Source: Roseivirga sp. BDSF3-8 (GTDB taxonomy: Bacteria > Bacteroidota > Bacteroidia > Cytophagales > Cyclobacteriaceae). Taken from it: a DNA stretch of 64,000 bases. Both the position numbers and the translations under genes were made by a program. The DNA is taken from the NCBI RefSeq assembly GCF_041449215.1, contig NZ_JBGNFV010000001.1:5039001-5103000 (forward strand), in the 5' to 3' direction. This document shows, piece by piece, positions 59,824 through 63,847 of the stretch; position 1 is the stretch's first letter, and every line of letters starts with the position of its first letter. The notes beneath the pieces are model-generated. The model did no database searches and had not been told where the DNA came from. It saw only the letters and a program-made list of their open reading frames with translations.

Positions 59824-59896
59824 GCTCCCATAGTTCAACTGGATAGAATACTAGATTCCGGTTCTAGCGATAGGGGTTCGACTCCCTTTGGGAGCA
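59824..59896 (+). tRNA. tRNA-Arg (anticodon CCG)
   Basis: A 73-base cloverleaf: acceptor GCTCCCA / TGGGAGC, D-stem GTTC / GAAT, anticodon stem CTAGA / TCTAG with loop TTCCGGT (anticodon CCG), a 4-base variable loop, T-arm AGGGG-TTCGACT-CCCTT, discriminator A. The 3' CCA is not encoded. It reads CGG. It borders the accessory region on its right, the usual position of an island integration site, but I saw no repeat of its 3' end in the window. Confidence 0.95.
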
Positions 59897-59907
59897 CAAT
59901 GCATGAC

Positions 59908-60000: not shown

Positions 60001-60214
60001 ACAGCCATTGCCGGGCAACGAGGCTGGGACGCCTAGTCCGGGATCCGTCAACTATGAAAAGCAGAGGCCAATCTCACAGCCGGATGGATTAACAGCAAAT
60101 GTCAATTACAGACCTCGCTGCCATTCTAAAGGGGACACTTTAAGCTGACCTATCAGCTAGTGGTAGACGGGCCCCGGCTCGGAGGCCGGGGACGGAGCTT
60201 TAAGTTCGCTTCAC
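60001..60214. repeat. Palindrome-rich repeat, full copy 1
   Basis: About 214 bp. In order: ACAGCCATT, CTAGTCCGGGATCCGT, GCCAATCT, AACAGC, CTTTAAG, AGCTAGT, AGACGGG, GGACGGAGCTTTAAGTT, TTCACC. The same words come in the same order in the copy at 60685-60907. It contains the hairpin CCCCGGC / GCCGGGG (60172-60190). GC-rich compared with the flanking genes. No ORF. Confidence 0.75.
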
Positions 60215-60224
60215 CACAATCTCC

Positions 60225-60268
60225 GGATCGTGCCATCGCTTGTCCGGGAGCTAAGCTTTAAGTTGACT
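60225..60268. repeat. Repeat fragment (3' part) just before the GIY-YIG gene
   Basis: Matches the right part of the repeat at 60858-60903: GGATCG, CATCGCTTGTCCGGGA, AGCTTTAAGTT and ACTTT are shared. It ends about 50 bp before the GIY-YIG start. Confidence 0.65.
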
Positions 60269-60320
60269 TTTGAGGAAAACTCTTCCTAGATTCGTACCTT
60301 CAATTAAGCTATGCCCACAC

Positions 60321-60611
60321 ATGCAGACTTTCTACGTCTACATCATTACCAATAAAAACAATACAGTTCTATACACCGGATTCACTGATGACGTATTCCG
60401 AAGAAGCCTGGAACATAAGGAGAAGTTGTATAAAGGCTTTACTGCCAAGTGGAACTGTAATAAAATCGTTTACTATGAAACATACTATGATGCAGATGAA
60501 GCCATTAGACGAGAAAGACAGCTTAAACGCTACCTCCGCAAGTGGAAGGAAGAGTTGATCGATAAGAAGAATCCGGATTGGAAGGATTTATTCGAAGAAA
60601 TGCTTACTTAA
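60321..60611 (+). CDS. Single-domain GIY-YIG nuclease (YhbQ/UPF0213-like)
   Basis: A 96-residue protein that is almost wholly one GIY-YIG domain. FYVYIITNKNNTVLYTGFT contains the two motif strands in the form VYI and YTG. The conserved Arg/His helix is RRSLEHKEKLYKGFTAKW, and the metal Glu lies in EAIRRERQLKRYLRKWK. Such small proteins cut structured or single-stranded DNA in the few cases studied. The ATG at 60321 matches family starts; upstream frame has only TTG. It lies between copies of a palindromic repeat, which suggests the nuclease and the repeat belong together. Confidence 0.88.
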   Translation: MQTFYVYIITNKNNTVLYTGFTDDVFRRSLEHKEKLYKGFTAKWNCNKIVYYETYYDADEAIRRERQLKRYLRKWKEELIDKKNPDWKDLFEEMLT

Positions 60612-60656
60612 CCACCATTCCCGGGCTTAGACCCGGGATCCGTCAGCAATGAAACA
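60612..60656. repeat. Repeat fragment (5' part) just after the GIY-YIG gene
   Basis: CCATTCCCGGGCTTAG-ACCCGGGATCCGT followed by CAGCAATG matches the start of the full copies. It carries the palindrome CCCGGG-cttaga-CCCGGG and begins immediately at the stop codon of the nuclease gene. Confidence 0.65.
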
Positions 60657-60684
60657 CAGAAGCAAGTCGTACAGACCCTCTCGT

Positions 60685-60907
60685 TACAGCCATTCCCGGG
60701 CTTGACCGAGGACGCCTAGTCCGGGATCCGTAAGCAATGGAATGCGGCAGCCAATCTTACCGCCTGATGAAGAAACAGCGAATGCCTCTTAGGAGCCTTG
60801 CTACCATTCCGATGGGGTCGCTTTAAGTAGACATTAAGCTAGTAGCAGACGGGTCCCGGATCGCGCTATCGCTTGTCCGGGAACGGAGCTTTAAGTTTAC
60901 TTCACCC
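60685..60907. repeat. Palindrome-rich repeat, full copy 2
   Basis: About 223 bp, a direct repeat of 60001-60214 in the same orientation and word order. In the place of the CCCCGGC hairpin it has TCCCGGA / TCCGGGA, a different sequence that keeps a stem, which hints at selection for structure. Its right end coincides with the break point of a truncated sensor gene (60905). Confidence 0.75.
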
Positions 60908-61437: not shown

Positions 61438-62343
61438 ATGGATATATTTCTTAGTTGGTCTGGTCCAAAAAGTCAAAAAATAGCAGAGGCACTAAAAACA
61501 TGGATTCCTACAGTTATCCAAGTAACAAAACCATTCTATTCGTCAAATGATATTGCAAAAGGTAAGAGATGGAGTAGCGAAATTTCATTTAAACTTGAGC
61601 AGGCTGGTTTCGGCATTTTGATAATGACTGATGAAAATACCACAGCACCTTGGATACTTTTTGAAGCTGGAGCAATCTCTAAAAACATAAACACGGGTAG
61701 AGTATGCACTTTTCTTTTTGGTATTAAAGAAACAGACCTCCAAGGACCGTTAAGTCAATTTCAGAATACAAAATTTAATAAGAATGATGTTTTTAAGCTG
61801 CTCAAGGATATAAACCGCGAATTGAAAGTGCCTTTAGAAGATAAGGTTCTTGAAGTTACTTTTGAAAAGATGTGGCCTGATTTAGATTCTCAAATCTCCA
61901 ATATATTAGATTCAACACCCCATGAAGGTCATGAAGAAATAAGAACCGAAAGAGATTTACTAGAAGAAATATTAAGACATACAAGATCTATACAATATAA
62001 ACATCTCTTCGCGCGAAGCTCTAACAATTTTGAAACTTGGATGGGTGAAGAAAAATCCAAAGTAATATTTGATGAAAACGCGAAGGCAATAGTTTTCCTA
62101 AAAGACAATAACGAGGAATATTTTATAGAATTAGGGAGCCTTGGAAAAACAGGACGGATTCTAGATTTTATGTTCCAGATAAATACAAAAGCATGGGCTA
62201 CAAGTAGACATTTAAAGGGGTTTATTGATTGCCTAGAAGAACTATCAAGTGAATATTTCGATAGTAATGCTCAAGGAGTTATTTGCCCACAAGGTAAAAC
62301 AAGAAATATAGATTGGAAAAATAGAACCTACGGTGACACCTAA
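61438..62343 (+). CDS. TIR-domain protein (predicted anti-phage effector)
   Basis: 301 residues. The N-terminal TIR domain (about 1-145) starts MDIFLSWSGPKSQKIAEALK. It has SNDIAKGKRWSSEISFKLEQ, GILIMTDENTTAPWILFEAG (the Glu in FEAG is the usual NADase catalytic residue) and the GRVCTFLFGIKETDLQGPLS strand. The C-terminal part (about 185-301) with FIELGSLGKTGRILDFMFQI and HLKGFIDCLEELSSEYF is an unassigned domain that may sense or oligomerise. Bacterial TIR proteins commonly deplete NAD during phage infection. The gene is AT-rich. It lies next to a disrupted abortive-infection-like gene 34 bp downstream. Confidence 0.85.
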   Translation: MDIFLSWSGPKSQKIAEALKTWIPTVIQVTKPFYSSNDIAKGKRWSSEISFKLEQAGFGILIMTDENTTAPWILFEAGAISKNINTGRVCTFLFGIKETDLQGPLSQFQNTKFNKNDVFKLLKDINRELKVPLEDKVLEVTFEKMWPDLDSQISNILDSTPHEGHEEIRTERDLLEEILRHTRSIQYKHLFARSSNNFETWMGEEKSKVIFDENAKAIVFLKDNNEEYFIELGSLGKTGRILDFMFQINTKAWATSRHLKGFIDCLEELSSEYFDSNAQGVICPQGKTRNIDWKNRTYGDT

Positions 62344-62594: not shown

Positions 62595-63542
62595 CTAAGA
62601 TTCTACAAGTTGAGTTGTTAGTTTTAGCTTACCATCTGTTGTCTGTTCCAGTGGCAAGTTACGTAGTTTCTTGGCGCTGTTTGTTCTTTTAAGGAACTGA
62701 CTGGGCGCTTGTTTTCCAAGGCTGCCATGTAGACGCTCGTGGTTGTAAAAGTTCATAAAGCGATTGAAGGTCTCCTTTGCTTCCTGCAGGTCCTCGAACT
62801 CATATTTTGAGCATACGGCGCTTTCTATGATGGAATGAAAGGACTCAATATAGCAGTTCTCCTGCGGTGTAGCTACATGCGTGAACTCATGCTCGATGGC
62901 CATTTCCTTTAGGTATTCCCGAAACAGCCCTGCCTCAAACTGACTACCGTTATCGGTTCGTAAGGTTGCTTTTTCAGGTAACTGGTAATGGTAAAGTATT
63001 TCTTTCATTAGTTCGATCACCTGGTGCTTGGTCACGCTCCAGGCCAACCTGTAGCCTAATACTCCCCGGGAGTATACATCCAATACGGTAATTAGCAGCG
63101 CATTACGATGCTGACCGTGAATATAGATATACTTGATATCGGTCTGCAGGCATTGAAAAGCTGCTTCCGGGCTAGGAAGAAGATCCTGAGCAATGCGTTT
63201 GCCACGTTTGTTGCGCCTAATGCGCTGACTGAGCAAGCGAGCCTGCTTCATGAGCCGATAAACTTTTTTCTCGTTGATAACGAGCCTTTCGGTGTTTTTC
63301 AACCAGGCCGCTACCTTCTCATAACCATAATCAATAAACTCCTGGCTTAAGAGCCATTCGATCCGCTCCAGCACATAGGCATTGCTGTAAAGAATACCAT
63401 CATGGCTCAGGGTATGTTGGCTTACTTTACGCCCTCTCTTGCCTGTCTTGGATTGATAGTAATAAGAGCTTCTACTCAGGCCACATAAAGGCAGCACTTT
63501 ATATGTAGCATAACCCAGGTTAATATACTTTTGAGCAATCAT
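62595..63542 (-). CDS. IS3-family transposase OrfB (DDE integrase)
   Basis: 315 residues. An HTH_21-like N-terminus (IEWLLSQEFIDYGYEKVAAW) precedes an rve integrase core with the catalytic triad: Asp in LQTDIKYIYIHG, Asp in LRTDNGSQFEAG and Glu in CYIESFHSIIES. The C-terminal FMNFYNHERLHGSLG is standard. Its start overlaps the OrfA stop by 4 bp (ATGA), so it may be translated by coupling instead of, or as well as, the frameshift usual in IS3 elements. Confidence 0.95.
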   Translation of the reverse strand: MIAQKYINLGYATYKVLPLCGLSRSSYYYQSKTGKRGRKVSQHTLSHDGILYSNAYVLERIEWLLSQEFIDYGYEKVAAWLKNTERLVINEKKVYRLMKQARLLSQRIRRNKRGKRIAQDLLPSPEAAFQCLQTDIKYIYIHGQHRNALLITVLDVYSRGVLGYRLAWSVTKHQVIELMKEILYHYQLPEKATLRTDNGSQFEAGLFREYLKEMAIEHEFTHVATPQENCYIESFHSIIESAVCSKYEFEDLQEAKETFNRFMNFYNHERLHGSLGKQAPSQFLKRTNSAKKLRNLPLEQTTDGKLKLTTQLVES

Positions 63543-63847
63543 GAGCCTGTACGCTTTTTGGCAGTGCTTTTTTTTAAAAGCTCTTCTTTAATGCGCAGGG
63601 CCAGCTCTTTTTCAGCCAGCATCTCTTTTAACTGCTGGTTTTCCTTTTGCAAGCGCTTAAGCTCAGGGTCTACTTTATAATGCTTGCTGGCTAGGGCATC
63701 TATGCCACCAGTATCATACTTTTCCTTCCATTGATAGAAAGTATTGCTATAGATACCGTGCTTGCGGATGGTGGCTGTAATGCCTTCCTTTTCTGCTTCT
63801 AAAAGAATCTGAAGCTTCTGTTCAGCGGTCCAGTGTCTTCGTTTCAT
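63539..63847 (-). CDS. IS3-family transposase OrfA (HTH)
   Basis: 102 residues. The N-terminal HTH reads MKRRHWTAEQKLQILLEAEK, then GITATIRKHGIYSNTFYQWK, and is followed by the leucine-zipper segment LKRLQKENQQLKEMLAEKEL that mediates oligomerisation. The protein binds the IS ends. Intact, so the element may be mobile. Confidence 0.93.
   Translation of the reverse strand: MKRRHWTAEQKLQILLEAEKEGITATIRKHGIYSNTFYQWKEKYDTGGIDALASKHYKVDPELKRLQKENQQLKEMLAEKELALRIKEELLKKSTAKKRTGS

Follow-up and report, generated by a model that had tools for sequence, protein, structure and literature searches.

The gene for a small nuclease of the GIY-YIG superfamily, set among palindromic repeats, raises the question of what the enzyme and the repeats have to do with each other. 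Roseivirga sp. BDSF3-8 carries such a gene in the stretch of DNA analysed here (64,000 nucleotides, contig NZ_JBGNFV010000001.1, positions 5,039,001 to 5,103,000; hereafter the window). Few non-coding repeats in bacteria are commoner than REPs, i.e. short dispersed extragenic palindromes, and for the GTAG REPs the partner enzyme is known: RAYT, a HUH tyrosine transposase (TnpA-REP). The CGTC-tagged REPs, which include Neisseria dRS3 and Rickettsia RPE-4/6 and span Alphaproteobacteria, Bacteroidetes and others mostly as head-to-head dimers, apparently lack a dedicated transposase, and the cited paper asks what moves them (PMC3733652).

Repeats and nuclease gene of the window

A sequence-only reading of the window had described two full repeat copies of about 215 bp and two partial repeats bracketing a gene of 96 residues, and our analysis reproduced this layout with its coordinates (Table 1). 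The two full copies, R1 and R2, align in the same orientation over 227 columns with an E value of about 1e-30. The core of the downstream partial repeat is 79% identical to 60038-60079 and about 78% identical to 60721-60760, and its hairpin (about 60618-60641) reads ATTCCCGGG-CTTAGA-CCCGGGAT, with the stem of the family named REP-W below. The right hairpin of R2 matches REP-W on the minus strand with one mismatch. In the window the tags face the nuclease gene.

Table 1 Coordinates of the nuclease gene, its repeats and related features (window positions unless another sequence is named; C1, contig of the Roseivirga genome).
Feature	Position	Strand	Remark
tRNA-Arg (CCG)	59824-59897		About 100 bp upstream of R1
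Full repeat copy R1	60001-60215	+	72% identity to 60686-60906; folds computed
R1 hairpins, inverted orientation	Left ~60005-60042, right 60172-60191		Left degenerate; right fits REP-W, minus strand
Partial repeat (right part, weak hairpin), just upstream of nuclease gene	60223-60269	+	87% identity to 60856-60902
Subfamily-A GIY-YIG nuclease gene, 96 aa	ATG 60321 to stop 60611	+	PF01541 E=2.2e-14
Partial repeat (left part), just downstream of nuclease gene	60611-60674	+
Full repeat copy R2	60686-60906	+	72% identity to R1
R2 hairpins, inverted orientation	Left about 60693-60727, right about 60854-60884
TIR-domain gene	61438-62343		Directly beyond repeat region; PADLOC TIR-TM defence model, E=1.9e-68
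IS3-like transposase pair	62595-63847	-	rve integrase core and upstream HTH-like ORF
REP-2/nuclease loci with bracketed gene	L009 9227-13300 = C1:4784726-4788799		Assignments by sequence reading alone
Tandem intergenic array with REP-W-like hairpins	L099 1879-3448 = C1:5277178-5278747		~718-bp period; no nuclease
Subfamily B loci	L010 2118-3200 (C1 about 1866100-1867200); L062, L063, L064, L065, L037, L038; L233-L252

The differing stems noticed earlier do keep their pairing, CCCCGGC with GCCGGGG and TCCCGGA with TCCGGGA. When the folds were computed, four of the six window hairpins folded better than most shuffles (z of -1.84 for 60165-60200, -2.69 for 60609-60645, -1.27 for 60684-60732 and -2.56 for 60846-60894) and the other two proved degenerate (-0.04 for 60005-60054 and -0.83 for 60215-60262), so that hairpin retention held for part of the set. 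No partial tRNA copies were seen by eye within the window repeats.

The encoded protein belongs to the GIY-YIG superfamily by its match to PF01541 and its conserved Y, Y-x-G, R, E and N positions. Residues Y6, G19, R27, H31, E64 and N83 are invariant in 40 aligned members, Y17 is nearly so, and the catalytic columns are near-invariant across 99 family members. An AlphaFold2 model of the protein has a mean pLDDT of 95.6, and the solved structures nearest to it are UPF0213 proteins, Slx1, the UvrC N-domain and I-TevI. Profile, model and structural neighbours thus bear out the earlier view that the enzyme has a fold other than that of RAYT. GIY-YIG enzymes are hydrolytic nucleases and are not known as transposases, which tells against a mobilising role for the protein. 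No NCBIfam model was found for the window nuclease. A phage-defence role was considered and rejected, as no PADLOC model matched the nuclease.

Two hairpin families in the Roseivirga genome

Used as a DNA query, the whole 215-bp block was found at the window locus only, with no match elsewhere in the Roseivirga genome or in any of 97 relatives. The dispersed unit is the hairpin inside it, or a hairpin dimer, and not the block that the sequence-only reading had proposed to count. A search for TTCCCGG-loop-CCGGGA gave 20 places in the genome against 18 for the reversed control, which is uninformative as a count alone. On reading the sequences of those places, we found that they have CTTAAWGNNCYATTCCCGG-loop-CCGGGATCCGTC in common, and we named the hairpin family with this extended sequence REP-W. 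With its 5' part as the query, 29 matches were obtained in the genome against 4 for the reversed pattern. The sixth stem pair is A-T, C-G or G-C among the genomic copies, a few mispaired copies being exceptions. As short dispersed extragenic palindromes the window repeats are REPs in the general sense, and the copy number of REP-W is modest for a REP family. No nuclease gene of the window type (hereafter subfamily A) was found near REP-W sites outside the window, within the 3 kb fetched around them.

Two further nucleases of this genome, at 4785082 and 4788132, are 56% and 54% identical to the window nuclease. They are surrounded by a different hairpin, REP-2 (CGATGGGGRCCCCG-loop-CGGGG), with 18 matches in the genome against none for its reversed control; four adjoin its two nuclease genes, and the 18 are partly dependent, as some copies look like longer duplicated segments (L180, L183, L188, L191). 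The Roseivirga genome therefore holds two repeat families, each around its own nuclease or nucleases.

The two REP-2/nuclease loci bracket a putative HsdR-like helicase gene, which looks like a type I restriction subunit, and an HsdS-like gene appears to lie beyond. Elsewhere the genome contains many mosaic repeat arrays without any nuclease, and one tandem intergenic array with REP-W-like hairpins is listed in Table 1.

Flank repeats at nuclease genes of relatives

The nuclease is present in 33 of 59 Bacteroidota relatives, with up to nine matches per genome (weak ones including subfamily B, described below), and in 33 of 96 alphaproteobacterial genomes. Such patchy presence is unlike a housekeeping gene, and it bears on the idea that the enzyme belongs to host repair: a structure-specific enzyme of the Slx1/UvrC kind that resolves hairpins or cruciforms, encoded as a cis-acting housekeeping gene beside REPs and mobilising nothing. 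Both Slx1 and UvrC are among the structural neighbours, and the catalytic residues are conserved, which would suit a repair function. Several diverged copies per genome, and REP types that change from copy to copy within a genome, would not, and we consider a host repair role improbable.

We show that the nuclease is associated with REPs. At 46 loci of relatives, we compared the 1 kb upstream with the 1 kb downstream, and 63% of loci shared a repeat of at least 35 bits between both flanks, compared with 0.9% when flanks of different loci were paired. In Alphaproteobacteria the figures were 60% and 2.3% of mismatched flanks. With flanks of 300 bp, a shared repeat was found at 36 of 74 nucleases and at none of 25 control ORFs at those loci, the controls being longer ORFs and not size-matched intergenic genes. 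The earlier proposal of a nuclease-repeat system was vulnerable to a nuclease usually found without repeats; roughly half to two thirds of the nucleases have flank repeats.

The repeat sequence varies from locus to locus, and many repeats start with GTCAT, end with ATGAC and form hairpins at both ends. Tandem repeat arrays make up several of the nuclease loci, and in Bacteroidota the gene lies more often between complete repeats. In the Bacteroidota set, GTCAT hairpins occurred at 1.36/kb within 300 bp of the gene against at most 0.23/kb farther out, and control tags at 0.07-0.29/kb near the gene; this count used a strict 7-bp stem rule that missed many true sites, and its nearest bin included hairpins starting inside the stop-to-stop frame. 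The alphaproteobacterial count, for which a cleaner gene span was used, gave 4.22 GTCAT hairpins per kb within 100 bp of the gene and 0.07/kb at 800-1500 bp, with seven control tags essentially at zero.

This steep decay with distance, together with the tag specificity, argues against chance accumulation, in which non-coding DNA gathers REPs and tandem repeats, so that a small dispensable gene there gets repeats on both sides. The mosaic arrays of Roseivirga that lack a nuclease and the nuclease loci that are themselves tandem arrays are what such a process would leave. Against it stand also the empty result for the 25 control ORFs (with the mismatch in length and setting given above), the reversed-pattern controls and the co-occurrence between genomes described in the next section. 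We regard chance accumulation as largely refuted and highly improbable.

The flank hairpins also mostly resemble those of their own genome. At 9 of 12 loci, the dispersed hairpins of the same genome were the best match for the flank hairpins, where chance would give about 1.3. As for the exceptions, the nucleases of genome G068 match poorly with the GTCATTCC REPs of that genome, and at one locus of genome G026 the own hairpins rank second. Different REP types surround different nuclease copies within one genome. The likeness to REP/RAYT systems that the sequence-only reading had drawn is thereby strengthened: subfamily-A genes have REP-type hairpins on their flanks in both Bacteroidota and Alphaproteobacteria, and these hairpins usually belong to a type that is dispersed through the genome concerned.

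Co-occurrence of REPs and nuclease across genomes

We classified genomes with 8 or more pattern matches as REP-rich, a cut-off chosen once the counts were known; the result was unchanged with thresholds of 5, 6 or 10 and in a rank test. Among the Bacteroidota relatives, the nuclease occurs in 15 of 18 REP-rich and 10 of 41 REP-poor genomes (Fisher p=3e-5, kinship ignored; 58 genera), and the reversed pattern showed no link with the nuclease in this set (p=0.28). In Alphaproteobacteria it occurs in 19 of 23 REP-rich and 14 of 73 REP-poor genomes (Fisher p=6e-8, kinship ignored), and the link persists by size class (p=0.03 for small genomes, p=4e-6 for large ones). Wide occurrence of the repeats without the nuclease would also have told against the earlier proposal, and neither this outcome nor the one considered above was seen outright; most REP-rich genomes carry the nuclease, the exceptions with REPs and no detected nuclease being G015, G101, G118, G144 and G150. 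Conversely, 14 of the 33 alphaproteobacterial nuclease genomes have fewer than 8 REPs of the pattern type, the REP pattern being incomplete, and strong flank repeats of another kind occur in some nuclease genomes that are REP-poor by pattern (L139, L145).

In G015, clear matches to the GTCATTCC REP number about 20 or more and often form regular heterodimers (e.g. C1:422990-423065 of that genome), and no subfamily-A nuclease was found. These REPs may be orphans or have a different partner.

Replacement of the dimer spacer by the nuclease gene

In genome G113, inverted copies of GTCATCCCCGCG..GGGGATCC lie at distances of 11 and 13 bp from the nuclease gene (1556803-1557081); this pattern has 29 matches in that genome against none for its reverse, nearly all of them copies of this hairpin. 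The nuclease element shares its ends, and mostly its ATCCAGG tails, with dispersed dimers of about 95-107 bp, and in the nuclease version the gene substitutes for the dimer spacer, for a total of 353 bp. The same spacer replacement is found in Euryhalocaulis caribicus (L040, genome G098) with the hairpin GTCATCCTCCGGCTTGACCGGAGGACCC, and in both genomes the nuclease with its REP borders measures about 350-400 bp. A plus-gene-minus arrangement occurs at five alphaproteobacterial loci (L040, L117, L125, L127, L136), and the orientation differs at others. In genome G184, two loci at unrelated sites carry similar nuclease elements bordered by REPs, and homology outside the elements is limited to REP-type sequence. 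REPs mark the element ends in G113, G098 and G184, with no target duplication evident by eye.

The main rival to reading the nuclease as a partner enzyme of the REPs is a homing parasite. REP dimers would then spread by other means, and the GIY-YIG gene would cut empty dimers and enter the spacer by break repair, a filled copy thereby being immune to its own nuclease. GIY-YIG is a classic homing fold, with I-TevI among the structural neighbours, and in G113 and Euryhalocaulis the gene lies exactly in the dimer spacer, as a homing gene lies in its target, with few filled sites and many empty dimers. A parasite should need REPs while REPs should not need the parasite, however, and the observed imbalance is opposite: 4 of 23 REP-rich alphaproteobacterial genomes are without the nuclease, against the 14 of 33 nuclease genomes that are REP-poor by an incomplete pattern. 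Moreover, the Bacteroidota gene lies between complete repeats and not inside one. Because REPs are rarely found without the nuclease, which itself often occurs in genomes with few REPs, we favour the partner-enzyme reading and consider a homing parasite unlikely.

A tRNA-associated GIY-YIG subfamily

The same genomes contain a second, UPF0213-like GIY-YIG subfamily, here called subfamily B (Table 1), which adjoins tRNA genes and not REPs. A same-strand tRNA lies within about 200 bp at 7 of the first 8 loci examined in relatives and at 15 of 20 further loci. Its units are often tandem, with partial tRNA copies in which a palindrome replaces the anticodon arm, such as TCCCGATATATCGGGA in L062 and TCCCGACAGAGTCGGGA in L064. 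Subfamily B may be a tRNA-associated GIY-YIG element.

Proposed working of the REP-nuclease system

On balance, we lean towards the reading that the locus in the window is one instance of a REP-nuclease system, in which the nuclease mobilises REPs by hairpin cutting and repair. The gene of a free-standing subfamily-A nuclease of about 96 residues would lie within or between copies of the hairpin repeat that the enzyme serves, and the dispersed hairpins and dimers would be the enzyme's non-autonomous, MITE-like dependants. The nuclease would recognise the hairpin, in its folded or cruciform state and together with its tag, and cut there, and repair of the break would copy or re-insert the hairpin dimer, sometimes with the gene, so that REPs spread and duplicate locally. 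The presence of Slx1, which cuts branched DNA, among the nearest solved folds speaks for this reading. We infer both the cutting of hairpins by this nuclease and the role of cutting as the driver of dispersal. The arrangement calls for caution with this model, as it varies from inside the dimer (some Alphaproteobacteria) to between complete repeats (most Bacteroidota) and to gene-facing tags (the window). Of the two characters that the sequence-only reading had offered, domesticated or mobile, the first seems the less likely: copy number differs between genomes and near-identical copies can lie at unrelated sites, which points rather to a selfish element.

As a tentative generalisation, CGTC-type and related REPs could have small GIY-YIG nucleases as their dedicated mobilising enzymes. 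If true, few self-encoding DNA mobile elements would be smaller than the REP-nuclease-REP unit, at about 350 bp, and the movement of this unit would proceed via nuclease cutting and host repair and not via a transposase. The analysis also names a specific, widespread candidate gene for the partner of CGTC REPs, with matched enzyme-repeat pairs in several genomes.

Comparison with known systems

A search of the open-licence literature found no prior paper joining GIY-YIG enzymes with REPs, and earlier reports elsewhere are possible. Among proteins of known structure, the UPF0213 small GIY-YIG proteins (BH0048, EF2693) come nearest, with the same single-domain size and fold, and differ in sequence, at about 25-30% identity to the window nuclease. 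Free-standing GIY-YIG homing endonucleases of the I-TevI type are likewise small selfish genes in or near a likely target. Unlike them, the present nucleases have no intron, intein or DNA-binding extension, and their putative target is a dispersed non-coding hairpin instead of one conserved gene. Integron attC sites, as repeats that conserve structure around a small gene, were considered as a further parallel and set aside.

Most flank hairpins of the relatives share with the CGTC REPs the GTC tag, an AT-starting stem, a short loop, an ATCC or ATCT tail and head-to-head dimers. Their GTC tag, AT-based hairpin and genome dispersal, as judged by the reversed-pattern and control-tag tests, place them with the CGTC REPs; the difference is that those were published without a dedicated transposase, whereas the repeats here are linked to a specific nuclease gene. 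For the window hairpins, we looked for an unpaired CGTC, or TGTC/CCTC, at one end and for a loop of 4-5 nt on an 8-9 bp stem whose base consists of A-T pairs. The tag was not found, the consensus being CTTAAWGNNCYATTCCCGG with GCC, ACC or TCC at the tag position. The stem of the left hairpins, ATTCCCGG/CCGGGAT, fits with one base missing on the 3' side, and the loops, of 4 to about 20 nt, are longer than in CGTC REPs. Because the strict GTC tag is absent, the window repeats are not classed as CGTC REPs; they are a REP variant and work like REPs.

The closest parallel is the REP/REPIN-RAYT system. Both consist of dispersed palindromes, mostly in inverted dimers, and of one small enzyme gene that has these palindromes on either side, and in both a single genome can hold several distinct enzyme-repeat pairs. 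An enzyme gene flanked by the dispersed palindromes of its own genome, as is typical of RAYT, was found for the two Roseivirga pairs and at the 9 of 12 loci given above. The tags differ, being GTAG there, GTCAT in the relatives and CYATT in the window, and the enzyme here is a GIY-YIG hydrolytic nuclease and not a HUH tyrosine transposase. By analogy, we propose the nuclease as the candidate partner of CGTC REPs, as RAYT is of GTAG REPs. If true, two unrelated enzyme folds would have become paired independently with dispersed hairpins.
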